Origin: Ramlibacter sp. | GTDB lineage: Bacteria > Pseudomonadota > Gammaproteobacteria > Burkholderiales > Burkholderiaceae_C | Direction: 5' to 3' | Length of the DNA stretch: 43,736 bases | Assembly: GCA_021323335.1 (NCBI GenBank) | Contig: JAJTCN010000018.1 | Location: forward strand, 1-43,736 | Shown: positions 11,551 to 41,325 of the stretch, piece after piece | Layout: the number at the start of each line of letters is the position of its first letter | How positions within the stretch are numbered: the first letter of the stretch is position 1 | Notes under the pieces: model-generated | What the model saw: only the letters and a program-made list of their open reading frames with translations | Databases searched by the model: none | What the model was told of the DNA's origin: nothing | Position numbers and translations under genes: made by a program

Positions 11551-12181
11551 GGACGCATTATCGGAAGGGCTGGTGTACGTGGACGAGCACCTGCTGGTGC
11601 TGGACAAGCCGGCGGGATTGCTGGCCGTGCCGGGCCGGGGCGAGGACAAGCAGGACTGCCTGGCGCTGCGCGCGCAGCGCCTGTGGCCCGACGCGCTGGT
11701 GGTGCACCGGCTGGACATGGCGACCTCCGGGCTGTTCCTGATGGGGCGCGGCATCGCCATGCAGCGACGCCTGGGCCGGGCCTTCGCCGAGCGCGAGGTG
11801 GACAAGCAGTACGAGGCCGTCGTCGCCGGCCAGGTGGAAGGGGACGCCGGCACGATCGACCTGCCGCTGGCGGCCGACTGGCCGCGCCGGCCGCTGCAGA
11901 AGGTGGACGCGGAACACGGGCGCCCCAGCCAGACGCGGTGGACGGTGGCCGCGCGCGCCGCCGACAGCACGCGGCTGCTGCTGGAGCCGCTGACCGGCCG
12001 CACGCACCAGCTGCGCGTGCACCTGCAGGCCATCGGCCACCCGATCCTGGGCGATGCGCTGTACGCTCCGCCGCAGGTGCTGGCCCGCGCGCCGCGGCTG
12101 CTGCTGCATGCCACCCGCCTGCGGCTGGCGCACCCCGAGGGCGGCGAGCCGCTGGTGTTCGAGAGCCCCGCACCGTTCTAG
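11549..12181 (+). CDS. rluA: RluA-family pseudouridine synthase (23S rRNA U746 / tRNA U32)
   Basis: This 210-residue enzyme isomerises uridine to pseudouridine. The catalytic block HRLDMATSG (D56) has the RLDMATSG form of RluA itself, and the rest follows RluA closely: DKPAGLLAVPGR, REVDKQYEAVVAGQ, LPLAADWPRRPLQKV, and TGRTHQLRVHLQAIGHPILGDALYAPP. It lacks the S4 domain of RluC/RluD, again as in RluA. It starts on an ATG that overlaps the divergent DUF486 start codon, so both genes lack conventional space for promoters. The exact start is therefore less certain than the identity. Confidence 0.92.
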   Translation: MDALSEGLVYVDEHLLVLDKPAGLLAVPGRGEDKQDCLALRAQRLWPDALVVHRLDMATSGLFLMGRGIAMQRRLGRAFAEREVDKQYEAVVAGQVEGDAGTIDLPLAADWPRRPLQKVDAEHGRPSQTRWTVAARAADSTRLLLEPLTGRTHQLRVHLQAIGHPILGDALYAPPQVLARAPRLLLHATRLRLAHPEGGEPLVFESPAPF

Positions 12182-13586: not shown

Positions 13587-13671
13587 GTAGGCCGGGGTGA
13601 GCGCGCAGCCGAACCCCGGTGGAGCATTGCCTTGATCACCGGGGTTCGGCTTCGCGCTCACCCCGGCCTAC
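13587..13671. repeat. REP-like GTAG palindrome pair between convergent genes
   Basis: Two copies in opposite orientation frame 17 bases: 13587-13620 (plus) and 13638-13671 (minus). Each starts GTAGGCCGGGGTGAGCGCG and ends ACCCCGGT, with the outer GCCGGGGT/ACCCCGG arms pairing. They fill the space between the SDR stop (13575) and the 2OG-dioxygenase stop (13673). They can form either two small hairpins or one long cruciform. Confidence 0.85.
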
Positions 13672-13672
13672 T

Positions 13673-14401
13673 TCAATCGCCCTGGAAGCCTCCCGCGCGC
13701 ACCGTCACCACCAGCGTGTCGCGATGACCTGACGCGCCTTCCGGCTGGATCGGCGTGGTCTCGTGCACCACCCGCTCGTCATCGAGCAGCAGCAGGCTCC
13801 AGGGTTCGGTCAGCGTGAAGCGCTGGCCGGCCGGGCCGTCGGCTTCGAAGACACGGGTCTCGCCGCCCTTGACGCCCTCGCGCGCGACCAGGAACACCCC
13901 CACCAGGTCGACGCCGTCCCGGTGCGCGCCCTCGGGCGTGGGCCGGCCGATGCCGCCCTCGGTGTCGATGCGGAACTGGTGCGCCTCGATGGACCAGGGG
14001 CGCGGCCCCTTCAAGTCGGAACTGGCCTGCGCCATCGCCCGCAGCAGGCCCGACCACGCCGGCTGCGCCACGACCTGCGGCGCCACCGGCTCGAACCAGC
14101 GCTGCATGCCGCCGTGCAATGCGTTGTATTCCACCGGCTGCCAATGCGCGCGATGCGGCGCCTGCGAGAGCCGCCCGCCCTCGGCGACGAAGCACGAGTG
14201 GCGACGGCGCCGGTAGCGCCCGCCGTCCTTCAGGTAGCCATCCGGCGGCAGGTCGTCCCACGAGGGCCGCAGCGCCATCAGGTCGTCGAGCGTGCAGCCG
14301 GCCAGCTGGCACACGGCCTGCGGACCGAGCACCGCGTAGCCCTGGCGGCGCAGCTGGGCGCCGAGCTGGTCGGCGGGTGTGTAGGCAGGGCTCAGGTGCA
14401 T
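13673..14401 (-). CDS. 2-oxoglutarate/Fe(II) dioxygenase, PF10014 (amino-acid hydroxylase-like)
   Basis: This 242-residue protein resembles the PF10014 2OG-Fe dioxygenases, whose known members hydroxylate free amino acids (for example L-isoleucine). Iron ligands fit H160-x-D162 (AHRDGVD) and H213 (VVHETT), and R227 (GHRDTL) is placed to bind 2-oxoglutarate. Other family blocks are QFRIDTEGGIGRPTPEG and WSLLLLDDERVVHE. It is the last gene of a run egtB-egtD-DUF427-this gene, 20 bases after DUF427. That context suggests an action on histidine, ergothioneine or a precursor, but this is inference only. Confidence 0.85.
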   Translation of the reverse strand: MHLSPAYTPADQLGAQLRRQGYAVLGPQAVCQLAGCTLDDLMALRPSWDDLPPDGYLKDGGRYRRRRHSCFVAEGGRLSQAPHRAHWQPVEYNALHGGMQRWFEPVAPQVVAQPAWSGLLRAMAQASSDLKGPRPWSIEAHQFRIDTEGGIGRPTPEGAHRDGVDLVGVFLVAREGVKGGETRVFEADGPAGQRFTLTEPWSLLLLDDERVVHETTPIQPEGASGHRDTLVVTVRAGGFQGD

Positions 14402-14421
14402 GGCCCGAGCTTACCCAAAGC

Positions 14422-14703
14422 TCAGGGCGTCACGTCCACGCCCTTCCAGAAGGCCACGCGGTCCTTCACCATCTCCGCTTCGGGCTTCGGGTCCGGGTAG
14501 TACCAGGCCGCATCCGGATTCAGCTCGCCGTCCACCATCAGCGAGTAGTAGCTCGCCTGGCCTTTCCACGGGCAGGACGTCCGGTGGTTGCTGAAGGTGA
14601 CGTACGCGCGATTCAGCGAGCTCGCGGGAAAGTAATGGTTCCCTTCCACCACCACCGTGTCGTCGCTCTCGGCGATGGTGACGCCCTTCCACGTTGCCTT
14701 CAT
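14422..14703 (-). CDS. DUF427 domain protein
   Basis: This 93-residue protein is a single DUF427 domain (MKATWKGVTIAESDDTVVVEGNHYFP...SNHRTSCPWKGQASYYSLMVDGE), a small beta-rich fold of unknown function. The SCPWKG-A-YY motif is the family's most conserved part. The ATG at 14703 is chosen because it lies 10 bases after the egtD stop and has AGGAGA just upstream; an in-frame start 12 codons further back would overlap egtD. The tight spacing points to cotranscription with egtB and egtD. Confidence 0.9.
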   Translation of the reverse strand: MKATWKGVTIAESDDTVVVEGNHYFPASSLNRAYVTFSNHRTSCPWKGQASYYSLMVDGELNPDAAWYYPDPKPEAEMVKDRVAFWKGVDVTP

Positions 14704-14713
14704 CGGTCTCTCC

Positions 14714-15637
14714 TCAGGGTGCGTGCAGCCAGTGGACACTGAACAGCCGCTCCGGGTCGGTCCACGCCGGCCCCGGGCGGAAGCCCGCGCGCACGGCCAT
14801 CGCGCGCAGGCCGTCCACGGTGAACTTGTACGAATTCTCGGTGTGCAGGCTCTCGCCTTCCTCCACCACGTAGCGCTCGCCGCCGAGCGTCACCACCTGC
14901 CGCTCGCGGCTGACCAGGTGCATCTCGATGCGCTGCAGCGCCGCGTTGTAGAACGCGTAGTGATGGAAGCGGGACAGCACGAAGTTCGTGCCCAGCTCGC
15001 GGTTGGCGCGCGCCAGCAGGTTCAGGTTGAAGGCCGCGGTCACGCCCTGCGCATCGTTGTACGCGCCGTGCAGCACGTGCGGGTCCTTCACCAGGTCCGC
15101 CCCCAGCAACAGGGCGCCGCCCTGCAGCATGGCGGCGGCGCGCTGCAGGAAGGCCACCGCCTCGTCGGGCGTGAAGTTGCCGAGCGTGGACCCCGGGAAG
15201 AAGCCGATGCGCTTGCCGCGCCCGGCGCGCGCTGGCAACGCGAGCGACTGCGTGTAGTCGCCCACCACCGGCTGGACGTCGAGGCCGGGGAACTGCGCGC
15301 GCAGGATGGCGGCGGAGTCCCGCAGGTGCTCGCCGGAGATGTCGATGGGCAGGTAGCGCGCCGGCCGGTCGAAGGCCTGCAGCAGCAGCCGCACCTTGCG
15401 CAGCGAGCCGGCGCCGAACTCGACGATCTCCGCGCCCTCCCCGGCCAGCGTGGCCATCTCGCCCGCGTTGCGCTGCAGGATGCCGATCTCGGTGCGCGTG
15501 GGGTAGTACTCCGGCAGCTCGCAGATGCGGTCGAACAGGCGCGAGCCTTCGGCGTCGTAGAAGTACTTGGGCGAGATGCTGCGCGGCCGGGTGGCCAGGG
15601 CCGCGGCGAAATCGATTGCGAATGCGTCCTGCGTCAT
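14714..15637 (-). CDS. egtD: L-histidine N-alpha-methyltransferase (ergothioneine biosynthesis)
   Basis: This 307-residue SAM-dependent enzyme trimethylates L-histidine to hercynine, the first step to ergothioneine. EgtD landmarks are SPKYFYDAEGSRLFDRICELPEYYPTRTEIGIL, the SAM motif EFGAGSLRKVRLLL, YLPIDISGEHL, and GKRIGFFPGSTLGNF. The C-terminal ENSYKFTVDGLRAMAVRAGFRP is also typical. The start overlaps the egtB stop by four bases (ATGA at 15634-15637), so the two are translationally coupled. With egtB it supplies hercynine to the sulfoxidation step. Confidence 0.95.
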   Translation of the reverse strand: MTQDAFAIDFAAALATRPRSISPKYFYDAEGSRLFDRICELPEYYPTRTEIGILQRNAGEMATLAGEGAEIVEFGAGSLRKVRLLLQAFDRPARYLPIDISGEHLRDSAAILRAQFPGLDVQPVVGDYTQSLALPARAGRGKRIGFFPGSTLGNFTPDEAVAFLQRAAAMLQGGALLLGADLVKDPHVLHGAYNDAQGVTAAFNLNLLARANRELGTNFVLSRFHHYAFYNAALQRIEMHLVSRERQVVTLGGERYVVEEGESLHTENSYKFTVDGLRAMAVRAGFRPGPAWTDPERLFSVHWLHAP

Positions 15638-16887
15638 GCCCCATCCCTGGCGAGCCTCAGCCCGCTGAACTGCCAGCGCGTGGCCGGCGGAAAGAAATTG
15701 CGGTAGCTCGAGCGCGCATGACCGGCCGGGGTGGCGACGCTGCTGCCGCGCAGCACCACCTGGCCGACCATGAACTTGCCGTTGTATTCGCCGACGGAGC
15801 CGGCCCAGGGCCGGTAGCCCGGATAGGGGTCATAGGAGGAACGGGTCCATTGCCATACCTGGCCGTGCAGGTCGCGCAGGCCCGGCAGGCCGGCCGCGGC
15901 CTCCCATTCCGCCTCGGTCGGCAGGCGCGCCCCGGCCCACTCGCCATACGCGGCGGCTTCGTAGAGGCTCAGGTGGCTGGCGGGCGCCGCGCGGTCCAGC
16001 GGCCGCACGCCGTCCAGGCCGTACACCTGCCAGTGCCCAGCCGGCGCGCGCGGGTCCCCCGGCGCGATCCAGTACGCGGGCGCCTGCCAGCCCTGTGCCT
16101 GCACCGCCGCCCAGCCGTCCGACAGCCACAGCGACGCGGTGCGATAGCCGCCGTCCTCGATGAAATCAGCGAACTCGCCGCAGGTCACCAACCGGTCGGC
16201 GATGCGGTAGGGCTGCAGCCACACGCGGTGGCGCGGGGTCTCGTTGTCGAAGGCGAAGCCCTCGCCGTCGTGGCCGATGTCCACGGCGCCGTCGGGTCCG
16301 GCGAGCCAGCCCGACCGAGGGCTGGTGGCCAGGCGCAGCGGTTGCGGCTCGGCGGCGCGGTAGGCCGGCAGCAGCGGATTGCACGACAGCGCATGGAGGA
16401 TGTCGGTGAGGACCAGCTCCTGGTGCTGCTGCTCGTGATGCAGCCCCAGTTCCAGCAGGGGCGCGGCCCCGCACCAGGCCGCTTCGGTGGCCGTGGCGAT
16501 GAACTCCTCGATGCCCGCGTCGACGTGCGCGCGGTAGCGGTGCACCTCGGCCAGGCCGGGCCGGGTGAGCAGCCCGCGCTGCGGCCTCGGGTGGCGTGGC
16601 CCGAGCGACTCGTAATAGGAATTGAACAGGTGGGACCAGCGGCTGTCGAAGGCACGGTAGCCCGGCGCGTGCGCGGCGAGGACGACGGCCTCGAAGAACC
16701 AGGACGTGTGCGCGAGGTGCCACTTGGTCGGGCTGGCATCGGCCATGGACTGCACGCACTGGTCTTCGGCCGACAGCGGCGCGGCCAGGGCCAGGGTATG
16801 GGCGCGGACCTCGGCGAAGTGGCGCGCCAGCGCGGCGCGTTCGTCATCCCGCTGCGCGCCGCGCGCGGGCGATGGGTTCAGGGACAT
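15634..16887 (-). CDS. egtB: Ergothioneine sulfoxide synthase (hercynylcysteine sulfoxide synthase)
   Basis: This 417-residue iron enzyme couples hercynine with a thiol (gamma-Glu-Cys or Cys) and O2. An N-terminal DinB-like helical domain carries H60 in WHLAHTSWFFE and the HX3HXE motif H151-H155-E157 (HHEQQHQE). A formylglycine-generating-type C-terminal domain ends LHGQVWQWTRSSYDPYPGYRPW...SSYRNFFPPATRWQFSGLRLA. No egtA, egtC or egtE gene is present here, so either a cysteine-using EgtB or distant partners is implied. The ATG at 16887 gives a short leader; longer upstream frames run into the neighbouring gene's territory. Confidence 0.95.
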   Translation of the reverse strand: MSLNPSPARGAQRDDERAALARHFAEVRAHTLALAAPLSAEDQCVQSMADASPTKWHLAHTSWFFEAVVLAAHAPGYRAFDSRWSHLFNSYYESLGPRHPRPQRGLLTRPGLAEVHRYRAHVDAGIEEFIATATEAAWCGAAPLLELGLHHEQQHQELVLTDILHALSCNPLLPAYRAAEPQPLRLATSPRSGWLAGPDGAVDIGHDGEGFAFDNETPRHRVWLQPYRIADRLVTCGEFADFIEDGGYRTASLWLSDGWAAVQAQGWQAPAYWIAPGDPRAPAGHWQVYGLDGVRPLDRAAPASHLSLYEAAAYGEWAGARLPTEAEWEAAAGLPGLRDLHGQVWQWTRSSYDPYPGYRPWAGSVGEYNGKFMVGQVVLRGSSVATPAGHARSSYRNFFPPATRWQFSGLRLARDGA

Positions 16888-17002
16888 GCGTCCGGATCTC
16901 CTGGAAACGCGCCGCCGGCGGCGGTGCTCGGCGGGGGCCCACCCTGCCAATTCATTACAGCACAGGGGAAAAAACCGCGGGGCGCGCCGCCCGCGGCACG
17001 GA

Positions 17003-17416
17003 TCAATCGCGGTCCTGCCAGGCGACCTGGGGTTCGCGCAGCTGCTTCCACTGCCCCCAGCGGCTCGGGCTGTTGTCGACGCGGACGAAGTAGACCGGGG
17101 CATCGCAGGCCGCCCACTTGGCGCAGTTCTGCTTCCACTTGCGCACCTGGCCCGGCGGGACGTACAGGTAGACCGGCTGGCCGCGCGGCGCGCCGATGGT
17201 CTCGTTGGCCACCACTGGCTGGGGGTAGATCAGCGGCGGCGGCGCCGCCGCGTTGCGCACGGCGATGCGGCCGTAGATGCCCGGCTTGAGCGGGCCGCCC
17301 GTCGTCACGTTGCGAAAGTCGCCGGCCTTCTCTTTCTGGGCGACGGCGGGGCCGCCGGCGGTGAGCGCCGCCAGGGCGAGGACCAGGTGCGTGGCTGGTG
17401 CGATCGTCGTTCTCAT
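17003..17416 (-). CDS. Hypothetical exported protein with predicted signal peptide
   Basis: This 137-residue protein has a signal peptide (MRTTIAPATHLVLALAALTAGGPAVAQ, cleavage after AVAQ-type site near residue 26). The mature part is small and contains two cysteines (QNCAKWAACDAPVYFVRVD), likely to form a disulfide in the periplasm. Blocks such as GDFRNVTTGGPLKPGIYGRIAVRN and PVYLYVPPGQVRKWKQNC are conserved-looking but I cannot name a domain. I do not recognise the gene. It lies 115 bases upstream of egtB in the same direction, with no obvious link to ergothioneine. Confidence 0.75.
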   Translation of the reverse strand: MRTTIAPATHLVLALAALTAGGPAVAQKEKAGDFRNVTTGGPLKPGIYGRIAVRNAAAPPPLIYPQPVVANETIGAPRGQPVYLYVPPGQVRKWKQNCAKWAACDAPVYFVRVDNSPSRWGQWKQLREPQVAWQDRD

Positions 17417-21550: not shown

Positions 21551-21628
21551 GCCGGGGTGCGCTGGCGCGCAACCCGGCCTACGAAACGCCGGTCCCGGTA
21601 GGTCGGGTTGCGCGAAGCGCACCCCGAC
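21551..21628. repeat. REP-like GTAG palindrome pair between convergent genes
   Basis: Copy 1 (21551-21582, minus) reads GTAGGCCGGGTTGCGCGCC and ends GCACCCCGGC; copy 2 (21598-21628, plus) reads GTAGGTCGGGTTGCGCGAA and ends GCACCCCGAC. Each has 12-base arms with one mismatch in the same position. The pair lies between the DUF488 stop (21548) and the small exported protein stop (21633). Confidence 0.85.
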
Positions 21629-27257: not shown

Positions 27258-28949
27258 TCAGACCTCCGCCTTGTCCCGGTCCTTCGCCGACTCCAGCATC
27301 GCGCTGACGGCGTCGCCCAGCTGCGCGATGTCGAAAGGCTTGCGCAGCAGGCGCGGCTTGCCCGCCAGGCGTTCCACGGCCGCCATGTCGGCATAGCCCG
27401 TCGCCAGGATCACCGGCACGTCGCCGACCAGCTTGCGCGCCTCCGAGATCACCTCGGCGCCGGTCATGTCGGGCATCGCGTAATCGACCACCAGCAAGTC
27501 CGGCTTGATCGTGCGCAGCTGCACCAGGGCTTCGGCGCCGTTCGCCGCTTCGGTGACCTTGTAGCCGATGAGGCTGAGGCACTCGACGATCACGCGGCGG
27601 ACGTCCGGGTCGTCTTCGACCACGAGGATGTGGCAGGCGCCGGCCATGGCGGGCATGGCCGTTTCGCGCGCCACGACTTCATCCACGCCGTCCTCGTCGG
27701 CCTGCGGGAACAGCATTTCCACCGTCGTGCCCTCGCCTTCGACGCTGCGGATGCGGGCGATGCCGCCGGACTGGCGGGCGAATCCGTAGACCTGGCTCAG
27801 GCCCAGGCCGGTGCCGCTGCCCACCGGCTTGGTGGTAAAGAAGGGGTCGAACACCTTGGGCAGCACGTTGGCGGGAATGCCCGAGCCGTTGTCGCTCACC
27901 GAGAGCAGGACGTAATCGCCGTCCGGCACGTCGCGGTCGCCGTCGATGTAGCGCGTGCCGGTGGTGATCTTCAGCTTGCCCTCGGACATGGCGTCCTTGG
28001 AGTTCACCGCCAGGTTCAGCACCGCCATCTCGAGCTGGCCCGGGTCCAGCAGCACGGTCGCCTCTTCCTCGCACAGGTCCATCTCGACCTCGACGCCGGA
28101 GCCGACGGAGATTTCCAGCAGGTCCTTCATGCCCAGGATCAACTGGTTCACCCGCGTGACCTTGGGCATCAGCGACTGGCTGCGGGCGAAGGACAGCAGC
28201 TGGTTCGTGAGGCGGGCGCCCCGGCGCGCGGCGCTCTTGGCGCGATCCACCACGGGCTTGACCTTCTCCTCCTTGGCGTAGAGGGAGACCAGCTCGAGGT
28301 TCATGTTCACCACGTGCAGCAGGTTGTTGAAGTCGTGCGCGATGCCGCCGGTGAGCCGGCCGATCGCCTCCATCTTCTGCACCTGCGTCAGCGCCGCCTG
28401 CGCGCGCTCGCGCTCGTTGATCTCCTTCATCAGGCGATCGTTGGCGCTGGCCAGCTCCCTGGTGCGGCGCAGGATGCGGTCTTCGAGCTCGCCGTTCAGG
28501 CGCTCGAGCTCGGTGCGGGTGCGCTTCAATTCCTCGAGGTGCTCGCGCGCCGCATACTGGCGCCTGCGCGCGCGCACCGCGGATTCGGCGGCGCTGGCCA
28601 GCGTCTCGGCATTCAGCGGCCGCTCCAGCAGCACCAGGTTGCCCAGGCTGTGCAGCGAGCGAAAGTCCTTCTGCGGCCGCCGCCCCTCGCGCTTGGTGGC
28701 CAGAACGACGAAGGGGAAGTCGGACCATGGCGGCTGGTTGTTCAGCCAATGCAGCAGCCGGTCTTCGGCCATGAGGTCGGGCAGGGCCTCCTCCGTCAGG
28801 ATCACGGCGGCCGCGCCCTCCTGCAGGCATTGGAGAAGCTCGTCTTCCGTGGTGCAGACCTGGGCCTCGATGCCCTGGTGGGTGAGCACGCCATGGACCA
28901 CCGCACCATCGCGGCCCCGGGGCGCATGGATGAGGACACGAAGTTCCAT
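27258..28949 (-). CDS. Hybrid sensor histidine kinase with N-terminal degenerate receiver
   Basis: This 563-residue protein has an N-terminal receiver-like domain (1-125), a coiled coil (about 130-195), a HisKA domain with H205 (GRLTGGIAHDFNNLL), a HATPase domain with N316, DNGSG (353-357) and GTGLGL (379-384), and a C-terminal receiver with DD446-447, D489, T517 and K537. The N-terminal domain has Glu (E53) where the phosphoacceptor Asp would be, so it may act as a docking or constant module. No membrane helix is present, so the kinase is cytoplasmic. It overlaps the KaiC-like gene by one base (TGATG), so both come from one mRNA, and the ATPase is the natural signalling partner. Confidence 0.95.
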   Translation of the reverse strand: MELRVLIHAPRGRDGAVVHGVLTHQGIEAQVCTTEDELLQCLQEGAAAVILTEEALPDLMAEDRLLHWLNNQPPWSDFPFVVLATKREGRRPQKDFRSLHSLGNLVLLERPLNAETLASAAESAVRARRRQYAAREHLEELKRTRTELERLNGELEDRILRRTRELASANDRLMKEINERERAQAALTQVQKMEAIGRLTGGIAHDFNNLLHVVNMNLELVSLYAKEEKVKPVVDRAKSAARRGARLTNQLLSFARSQSLMPKVTRVNQLILGMKDLLEISVGSGVEVEMDLCEEEATVLLDPGQLEMAVLNLAVNSKDAMSEGKLKITTGTRYIDGDRDVPDGDYVLLSVSDNGSGIPANVLPKVFDPFFTTKPVGSGTGLGLSQVYGFARQSGGIARIRSVEGEGTTVEMLFPQADEDGVDEVVARETAMPAMAGACHILVVEDDPDVRRVIVECLSLIGYKVTEAANGAEALVQLRTIKPDLLVVDYAMPDMTGAEVISEARKLVGDVPVILATGYADMAAVERLAGKPRLLRKPFDIAQLGDAVSAMLESAKDRDKAEV

Positions 28950-30466
28950 CAGGACCTTCCGCGCCGGTCGCTGTCGCCAAGCAGCGGCAGGTCGCCGCGG
29001 TACGCGGTGACGCCGCTCAGCACGCCTTCGAAGTCGGTCAGCTCGTTGCCGAACTCCAGCCCGCGCGGGCCCAGGCGAAATTCGCGGATGGTCTGCTCAT
29101 GGTGGTTGGTGCGGCTCTTGACCATCGAGACGGCCTTCAGCAGCTTGCCCCGCGCCTCGAAGAAGCGGAACAGCAGGATCGCGTCGGACAGGTAGCTCAT
29201 GTCCACCTCGCTGCGGATCTCGCCCAGCACGCCGTGCTGCCCGAGGATCAGGATGGTGACCACGCCCCGATGGTTCAGGTAGGTCAGCAGCTCGTGCATC
29301 TGCAGCAGCAGGTACTTGCTGCCCGGCATCGCCTGCAGGTAGGCATTGATGCTGTCGATCACCACCATGCGCGAACCGTCTTCCTCGACGGCGTTGCGCA
29401 CCATGTGGGAGAACTCGCCGGCGGACATTTCCGCGGGGTCGAGCGGGACGATCCGCAAGCTGCCCGACGCGATGTAGGGCTCGATGTCGAGGCCCAGGGC
29501 CCGGGCGCGGACCACCAGCGTCGGCAGGCCTTCGTCGAACAGGTAGTAGGACGCCTTCTCGCCGCGCTTGAGAGCCGCGAGCACGCAAGCTATCGCGGTG
29601 GTGGTCTTGCCGACGCCGGAGGGGCCGCTGAACAGCGTGTTGGTGCCGGCGACGAGCCCGCCTCCCATCATCTCGTCCAGCTTCGCCACGCCGCTGCTGA
29701 CGACGCCGGTGTCGTTGAGGAGGCGATGTTCCGATGCCACCAGCCGCGGGAACACGGCCACGCCGCCCGTGTCCAGGATGTAGTCGTGCTCGCCGCCGCG
29801 GAACTTGATGCCGCGCATCTTCATCACGCGCAGGCGGCGGCGCTCCGGCCCGTACTGGTCGACCGCCTGTTCGAGGTTGATGACGCCGTGGGCGATGCTG
29901 TGCAACTGCAGGTCGGTGGCGCTCGTGGACCGGTCGTCCAGGAACAGCACGGTGCAGCCATGGTCGGAGAAGAACTTCTTCAGCGCGAGGACCTGGCGCC
30001 GATATCGCAGCGGGTCCTGCGCCAGCAGGCGCATCTCCGACAGGCTGTCGAACACCACCCGCCGCGGGCCCAGCTTCTCCACCTGCGCGATCACGCCCTG
30101 GACCGTCTCGCCCAGTTCGATCTGGGCCGGATGCAGGATGGACTGTTCGAGCTCCGGGCTCAGGCCCTCCTCGCTCACCAGTTCGAAGAGCTCGATGCCG
30201 TCGAGGGTCCAGCCGTGCGAAGCCGCGACCGTCCGGAGCTCGGCTTCCGTCTCGGAGAGCGTGACGTACAGCCCTTTCTCGCCGTTGCGCGCGCCCTCGA
30301 TCAGGAAGTGCAGGCCCAGCGTGGTCTTGCCGGCGCCGGGGTCGCCCTCGACGAGGTAGACATGCCCGGTGGGCAGGCCTCCGCCCAGGACGTCGTCGAG
30401 CCCGGCGATGCCGGTCGAGGCGCGTTCCTGTACCGGAATGTGAGAAGTGGGTGTGGGTCGTTTCAT
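28949..30466 (-). CDS. KaiC-like double RecA ATPase, paired with a hybrid kinase
   Basis: This 505-residue protein has two RecA/KaiC domains. Walker A motifs are GDPGAGKTT (41-49) and GPSGVGKTT (281-289); Walker B Asps are D140 (VVFDS) and D371 (MVVIDS). The acidic pair after each Walker A is SE (71-72) in the first and DE (311-312) in the second, so the first domain lacks one Glu of the canonical EE. In the second domain S424 aligns with the KaiC Ser431 phosphosite, and Y425 replaces Thr432. It overlaps the kinase by one base. No kaiA or kaiB is here, so a phase-keeping clock is unlikely; a phosphorylatable stress-signalling ATPase is more plausible. ATG at 30466. Confidence 0.92.
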   Translation of the reverse strand: MKRPTPTSHIPVQERASTGIAGLDDVLGGGLPTGHVYLVEGDPGAGKTTLGLHFLIEGARNGEKGLYVTLSETEAELRTVAASHGWTLDGIELFELVSEEGLSPELEQSILHPAQIELGETVQGVIAQVEKLGPRRVVFDSLSEMRLLAQDPLRYRRQVLALKKFFSDHGCTVLFLDDRSTSATDLQLHSIAHGVINLEQAVDQYGPERRRLRVMKMRGIKFRGGEHDYILDTGGVAVFPRLVASEHRLLNDTGVVSSGVAKLDEMMGGGLVAGTNTLFSGPSGVGKTTTAIACVLAALKRGEKASYYLFDEGLPTLVVRARALGLDIEPYIASGSLRIVPLDPAEMSAGEFSHMVRNAVEEDGSRMVVIDSINAYLQAMPGSKYLLLQMHELLTYLNHRGVVTILILGQHGVLGEIRSEVDMSYLSDAILLFRFFEARGKLLKAVSMVKSRTNHHEQTIREFRLGPRGLEFGNELTDFEGVLSGVTAYRGDLPLLGDSDRRGRS

Positions 30467-30575
30467 CCAATGCCAACAGCCGCGCAAGGACGAGCGGCTG
30501 CTGCGGGGCAATGCTATCTGCAACCCGGCAGCGGCCATGTAGGCCGTGGCCGACAATGCCGATCCGACTGGCTCG

Positions 30576-41205: not shown

Positions 41206-41325
41206 ACCGGGGTTCGCCTTCGGGCTCACCCCGGCCTACGACGAACGCCGGAAGACCGTAGGCCGGCGGTGAGCCCGAAGGCGAACCCCGGTGGTGCCGG
41301 CGGTGAGCGCGAAGCCGACCCCGGT
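41206..41325. repeat. REP-like GTAG palindrome cluster (three copies) between convergent genes
   Basis: Copy 1 (41206-41239, minus) starts GTAGGCCGGGGTGAGCCCG; copy 2 (41258-41292, plus) starts GTAGGCCGGCGGTGAGCCCG; copy 3 (41296-41325, plus) lacks GTAG but keeps GCCGGCGGTGAGCGCG and ACCCCGGT. They fill the gap between the GIY-YIG-like stop (41199) and the DUF1631 stop (41326), which directly follows copy 3. Confidence 0.85.

Follow-up and report, generated by a model that had tools for sequence, protein, structure and literature searches.

Four genes packed end to end on one strand of a Ramlibacter genome raise a simple question: how many of them serve ergothioneine biosynthesis, and does the last one carry the pathway on to a further product? 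The genes lie in a stretch of 43,736 nucleotides from Ramlibacter sp. (GenBank assembly GCA_021323335.1, contig JAJTCN010000018.1), referred to here as the window. Within it, egtB and egtD are followed by a gene for a small DUF427 protein and a gene for an Fe(II)/2-oxoglutarate dioxygenase of family PF10014. A preliminary description of this DNA had proposed that all four make up an extended pathway. We arrive, with moderate confidence, at a different reading. In it, the predicted product of the egtBD pair is the sulfoxide intermediate of ergothioneine, formed straight from cysteine; the DUF427 protein likely belongs to the same pathway; and the dioxygenase, near-universal in the sampled family, probably has a common free L-amino acid and not ergothioneine as its substrate. 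Two look-alike neighbours at a single locus are thereby told apart, the one an oxygenase common to the family and the other DUF427.

The Locus and Its Genes

The four genes, in the order of their transcription, are as follows.

15634-16887, minus strand: egtB, an intact open reading frame (ORF) of 417 amino acids; hercynine sulfoxide synthase that resembles the Chloracidobacterium enzyme and is, by similarity, of type II
14714-15637, minus strand: egtD, an intact ORF of 307 amino acids; histidine N-alpha-methyltransferase, its start overlapping the egtB stop by 4 bases
14422-14703, minus strand: DUF427 (PF04248), intact, 93 amino acids from an inner ATG, the longest frame beginning 12 codons earlier; a member of the short 93-residue subfamily, with a predicted beta-tent fold and conserved aromatic residues
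13673-14401, minus strand: PF10014 Fe(II)/2-oxoglutarate dioxygenase, an intact ORF of 242 amino acids

Measured between the window's ORFs, the successive spacings are -4, +10 and +20 bases. Gene calls, coordinates and spacings alike agree with the preliminary description when rechecked by ORF and profile searches. EgtB reaches 524.4 bits against the NCBIfam model TIGR03440 and EgtD 400.5 bits against TIGR03438, both passing the curated equivalog cut-offs (360 and 290.9 bits, respectively), while the DUF427 protein (PF04248, 109.6 bits) and the dioxygenase (PF10014, 233.4 bits) score above the Pfam cut-offs for their families. The four genes may be co-transcribed here.

An Ergothioneine Gene Pair of Predicted Cysteine-Using Type

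The upstream half of the locus is best read as an ordinary ergothioneine gene pair. The closest solved relatives of EgtB are structures of the Chloracidobacterium thermophilum enzyme (8qf6, 6qki, and 6o6l; 467 bits, in a match that spans nearly the full length), with SenA as the next group at 117 bits; EgtD matches the solved EgtD 4uy6 at 218.7 bits. By manual count on the alignment, R98 and R101 of the window's EgtB line up with R103 and R106 of 6qki, two residues named in the accessible part of the source among those that bind the cysteine-side substrate (PMC9103826). The two enzymes differ in a stretch around query residues 330-340, which is shorter in Ramlibacter. Similarity to the C. thermophilum enzyme, together with the two aligned arginines, leads us to predict an EgtB of the cysteine-using type II. 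Selenoneine synthase was considered as another identity and rejected, as the SenA model NF041186 gave 337.2 bits against a cut-off of 420.

In the proposed scheme, EgtD would trimethylate histidine to hercynine, the type II-like EgtB would combine cysteine with hercynine to give the sulfoxide, and a C-S lyase with its gene elsewhere would set ergothioneine free. As far as the excerpted source goes, type II EgtB takes cysteine instead of gamma-glutamylcysteine, and some Methylobacterium enzymes of this type need no EgtC activity to yield ergothioneine in E. coli (PMC11993508). A similar layout is described, again in a source available in part, for Methylobacterium aquaticum 22A, where egtB and egtD stand in tandem with egtA, egtC, and egtE elsewhere and where selection for egtB-egtD clustering is cited (PMC4621440). 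Loci of that type resemble the present one in having no clustered egtA, egtC, or egtE; they differ in what lies 3' of egtBD, which here is DUF427 and then, in this and some other genera, the PF10014 dioxygenase.

The preliminary description had remarked on the missing egtA, egtC, and egtE and had left sulfur supply and the final lyase as questions. The gap itself is borne out: no further egt gene appeared among 46 further window translations (a part of the window's ORFs, including some overlapping frames; Pfam, with E up to 1e-10 for 40 of them), and the best match to the EgtE model in the whole assembly, which is 89.7% complete, reached 63.4 bits against a cut-off of 400, a result compatible with a divergent lyase. 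As for egtA and egtC, which were sought among the window translations, their absence from the locus is ordinary and calls for no new chemistry, because an EgtB of this type uses cysteine.

The Dioxygenase Is Widespread and Independent of egtD

The distribution of these genes was followed in a family sample of 150 genomes from 141 genera and in an order sample of 130 genomes, 19 of which have a strong dioxygenase match and 29 any match. A likely orthologue of the dioxygenase is found in 129 of the 150 family genomes and in 120 of the 141 sampled genera, and a single enzyme screen could give a function to this common gene. egtD is present in 100 of the 150, namely in 90 of the 129 genomes with the dioxygenase and 10 of the 21 without it (p = 0.078); restriction to more complete genomes gives p = 0.25, and a logistic model that includes genome size gives p = 0.46. 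Across the order, egtD occurs in 8 of the 19 genomes with a strong dioxygenase match and in 42 of the 111 without (p = 0.80), and the proportions are 11/29 and 39/101 when all 29 matches are counted. Twelve genomes were hand-picked for having the dioxygenase but no detected egtD, and none of the 12 holds an egtB above the cut-off; EgtB-like matches of lower score are present in 7 of them. An enzyme that tailors ergothioneine would be expected to track egtD in its occurrence, and the dioxygenase does not. On the family and order counts, the size-corrected p-value and the 12 egtD-less genomes, we rejected ergothioneine tailoring. The dioxygenase is best seen as a separate, widespread enzyme that does not appear to be dedicated to ergothioneine.

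The proposal of the preliminary description has nonetheless to be weighed on its merits. Under it, hydroxylation of histidine, hercynine, or ergothioneine by the dioxygenase would give a compound not described before. The common strand and the gaps of 10 and 20 bases speak for it, as do the free amino acids given as PF10014 substrates in the accessible text of PMC3684760. So does recurrence of the gene order in relatives, a check that the preliminary description had called for. Contigs and positions were compared by eye in all 150 family genomes, with coordinates typed for 27 where two or more of the genes are close together. Of the 90 family genomes with both egtD and the dioxygenase gene, 13, representing 12 of the 141 genera, have the two within about 2.1 kb of each other on one strand; this ordering is beyond chance and is kept where the next flanking genes differ. 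In the other 77 of the 90, however, the two genes are kept apart, and in the order sample, setting aside the window's own genome, they are at least 48 kb apart wherever both are on one contig. A near-universal enzyme, present independently of egtD and with the same conserved core in egt-free loci of Oxalobacteraceae, Lysobacteraceae, and Myxococcaceae, fits poorly into such a pathway. We regard an extended four-gene pathway, for the preliminary description the leading candidate for an undescribed pathway in the window, as very improbable. A new ergothioneine-derived product is unlikely because the dioxygenase is found in most sampled relatives with or without the pathway.

Two EgtB-like proteins that fall under the egtB cut-off, G211:C69 (183 bits) and G169:C23 (249 bits), come from genomes without detected egtD and are possibly SenA- or OvoA-like.

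The surroundings of the dioxygenase gene were charted at 80 related loci, which are the best 80 of 583 matches in named genomes and are thus biased to close kin; neighbours were found by targeted searches, as clustering of the neighbours had been muddled by spurious frames. Within 3.5 kb of the dioxygenase, centre to centre, egtD lies at 16 loci, UspA at 21, a TonB receptor at 20, and fumarylacetoacetate hydrolase at 4. Sixty-four loci have neither egtB nor egtD, and more than 5 kb of upstream sequence was available in 50 of them. Even where DUF427 precedes the dioxygenase, other genes can come between the two: a hemerythrin gene on the opposite strand at L010, L011, L015, and L016, and a disulfide-oxidoreductase gene at L013, L019, and L022.

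The TonB receptor stands directly upstream of the dioxygenase in its 20 of the 80 loci and is itself preceded, at L033 and L079, by two genes of the same strand, one for a peptidase M1 (a family assigned at L033) and one of DUF6702 type. This setting is lineage-specific and may hint at peptide or amino-acid metabolism. In four Lysobacteraceae loci (L025, L058, L062, and L071), the dioxygenase is followed by fumarylacetoacetate hydrolase and a glutathione S-transferase (GST)-like gene, which we take to be maleylacetoacetate isomerase-like; such genes are used in tyrosine breakdown.

A Probable Amino-Acid Substrate

Residues H160, D162, H213, and R227 are present in all 81 aligned dioxygenase sequences, and we assume that this HxD...H plus R pattern represents the site residues of a PF10014 2-oxoglutarate/Fe dioxygenase. 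Across the same 81 sequences, 91 residues are conserved at 97% or more, and this core is unchanged whether or not egt genes are nearby. A residue signature specific to egt linkage was entertained and rejected, the differences overlapping between linked and unlinked sequences.

Several of the named relatives, at 78-87% identity, are from Ramlibacter itself. MpDO (Mpe_A2762) of Methylibium petroleiphilum, a PF10014 protein solved as 3pl0, matches at 292 bits and is a likely orthologue of the window's dioxygenase; the title of its entry gives no substrate. The L-isoleucine dioxygenase IDO (6lnh), HrmJ (9dqp), and BelL (8jms) are solved relatives with only 19-27% identity to the window's protein and with specialised roles, in the making of 4-hydroxyisoleucine and in cyclopropanation of L-6-nitronorleucine. 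All three act on free amino acids, according to the accessible parts of PMC3684760 and PMC10764440. A literature search by structure code turned up nothing more, apart from these papers, on what 3pl0 or related proteins act on. By analogy with these solved enzymes, the window's dioxygenase probably hydroxylates a common free L-amino acid. It would use Fe(II) and 2-oxoglutarate on a substrate other than those of the ergothioneine enzymes, and the putative shared transcript would lead to its joint production with them in some genera.

DUF427 as a Candidate Ergothioneine Accessory

DUF427 is distributed quite otherwise than the dioxygenase. In the order sample, egtD is present in 21 of 22 DUF427 genomes vs. 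29 of 108 others (p = 1.3e-9), and in a phylum sample in 22 of 42 vs. 24 of 177 (p = 3.3e-7), both values being uncorrected for kinship or genome size. Within the family the counts are 72 of 89 and 28 of 61 (p = 1.7e-5, or 0.015 after genome size is taken into account, kinship being ignored). All of these DUF427 counts mix short and long subfamilies. Physical linkage points the same way: the DUF427 and egtD profile matches lie within 100 bases of each other in 20 of the 72 family genomes with both. DUF427 stands beside egtBD at L199, L200, L201, L203, and L204, and such adjacency extends to three further families of the order (one genome each) and to one family outside the class (two genomes). 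Both arrangements, egtB-egtD-DUF427 and DUF427-egtB-egtD, recur in several families. Co-occurrence and linkage of DUF427 with egtD in several families are thus both observed, if more weakly after the size correction in the family, and they strengthen the earlier suspicion that DUF427 belongs with the pathway.

On these grounds DUF427 likely takes part in the ergothioneine pathway, and we put it forward as a candidate for a new accessory. With its small size, beta-tent fold and conserved aromatic residues, it may bind hercynine, ergothioneine, or an S-oxidised intermediate. This offers a lead on the function of DUF427, and the pathway concerned is one in which, for the bacterial branch that uses cysteine, no clear final lyase is seen at the locus. 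The literature searched, seen in part and with subscription papers and preprints outside its scope, yielded no earlier link between DUF427 and ergothioneine. A more specific version of this idea would make the short DUF427 a dedicated component acting between EgtB and the lyase, its aromatics caging the trimethylammonium group of hercynine or ergothioneine (or shielding an S-oxidised intermediate), and, after loss of egtBD, would keep it joined with the PF10014 dioxygenase in a second module. We offer that version tentatively and consider it somewhat unlikely.

Structural comparisons add further context. The solved DUF427 protein RSPH17029_0682 (3djm) shares 28% identity with the one in the window. 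Other beta-tent domains are those of Mis18/yippee and cereblon; DUF427 is without the zinc site that most such domains have, and the methionine sulfoxide reductase MsrB has a beta-tent fold as DUF427 does, in the accessible part of PMC4287342. MsrB-like chemistry was therefore considered. Two of the 40 sequences in the DUF427 alignment (L012 and L147) lack Cys44, which argues against an essential cysteine there; MsrB is absent among the 50 VIA-align entries listed for DUF427, an absence that excludes nothing. In ECDomainMiner, as far as its record was available, PF04248 is tied to deoxyhypusine monooxygenase with a score of 0.333 ('Silver'), a link on which nothing in the present analysis bears.

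Pairing of DUF427 with the Dioxygenase

DUF427 might instead be a partner of the oxygenase, the two forming a module of their own onto which egtBD was merely joined. The profile matches of DUF427 and the dioxygenase do lie within 100 bases in 14 of the 81 family genomes with both, 4 of these being without detected egtD, and the two genes overlap by 4 bases in L047 (a Rhodoferax metagenome-assembled genome) and, by the longest frame, in G211 (L179). Against such a module, DUF427 tracks egtD and not the dioxygenase across the order, where a strong dioxygenase match occurs in 2 of 22 DUF427 genomes vs. 17 of 108 others and the two show no co-occurrence. Moreover, in eight genomes DUF427 adjoins egtD away from the dioxygenase, which is far off or on another contig in G189, G234, G182, G195, G206, G237, and G204 and at 12 kb in G198. 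The pairing in genomes without detected egtD may be what is left of a four-gene cluster after loss of egtBD, or it may reflect a second partnership of DUF427. We judge a separate two-gene module to be improbable.

A DUF427-dioxygenase pair is also found on a contig filed as Sorangium cellulosum (L014:1-7488), where it groups with Ramlibacter-type rows in the dioxygenase tree; contamination or a recent transfer might account for this.

Evidence at Odds with the Preferred Reading

Several observations weigh against the reading we prefer, in which egtBD and DUF427 share a pathway and the dioxygenase stands outside it. Some would draw the dioxygenase closer to ergothioneine. Packing of the four genes is tight in the window, and the gap between egtD and the dioxygenase is below 500 bases in 10 of the 90 family genomes with both. 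Egt-linked dioxygenases share residues, such as G149 in 13 of 17 (D149 in 42 of 48 unlinked sequences), although these are not exclusive. Egt-linked loci also fall in more than one place of the dioxygenase tree, a quick build with many weak forks, which could represent a real link in those genera. Furthermore, ergothioneine can be imported by organisms that do not produce it, as stated in the available part of PMC9732360, and absence of egtBD therefore does not exclude ergothioneine as the substrate of the dioxygenase.

Other observations loosen the tie between DUF427 and egtD. In most genomes that have the two, DUF427 and egtD lie apart (besides the family counts above, DUF427 is at the egtD locus in 3 of 20 other genomes in the order and 7 of 21 in the phylum, 5 of the 7 coming from one genus), which lowers our confidence both in the preferred reading and in the dedicated-component version of it; egtD is missing from 17 of the 89 family genomes with DUF427; and of three genome-size classes, the association within the family is significant only from 4.5 Mb up. 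DUF427 is found in 81 of 129 family genomes with the dioxygenase and 8 of 21 without it, a weak co-occurrence (p = 0.053) that ties it to the dioxygenase too, and four family genomes in which no egtD was detected (G211, G168, G130, and G169, the last 74% complete) have it directly ahead of the dioxygenase.

Flanking Elements and Neighbouring Genes

Beyond the four genes, three features border the locus.

17003-17416, minus strand: small ORF upstream of egtB, with no Pfam match
16974-16997, minus strand: terminator-like hairpin with a T run, located between egtB and the small ORF; weak, at 2 overlapping sites vs. a shuffle mean of 1.1
13587-13671, no strand: 35-base inverted repeat just past the dioxygenase stop, its arms 97% complementary; a copy of a dispersed REP-like (repetitive extragenic palindrome) element

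The small ORF bears on whether the neighbourhood reflects nothing but descent, egtBD having landed once beside DUF427 and the dioxygenase, neither of them related to ergothioneine. Homologues of the small ORF immediately precede the dioxygenase, without intervening egt genes, at L030 and L038 (Curvibacter) and at L056 and L077 (Acidovorax), whereas in Ramlibacter-type loci the small ORF is upstream of egtB instead. The egt block thus seems to be gained or lost whole between two neighbours of longer standing, behaving like an insert or a deletion, as a chance neighbourhood would have it, and the lineage-specific neighbours of the dioxygenase are in keeping with this. The occurrence of DUF427 with egtBD in both gene orders in several families is, however, hard to explain by one event, and we think a purely inherited neighbourhood unlikely.

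The inverted repeat past the dioxygenase is a possible transcript end. Its REP-like, GTAG-type core is present in 68 copies in the assembly at up to 2 mismatches, vs. 4 for a reversed control. No Rfam element matched at gathering scores between window positions 12000 and 18500. The palindrome recurs in the window at 21565-21582 and 41222-41239, and there are several close inverted pairs of it, which presumably resemble repeats of the bacterial interspersed mosaic element (BIME) type. Farther away, at window positions 27258-30556 on the minus strand, an ORF for a KaiC-type ATPase lies directly upstream of one for a histidine kinase/response regulator, the two sharing one base and forming a KaiC-linked signalling pair.

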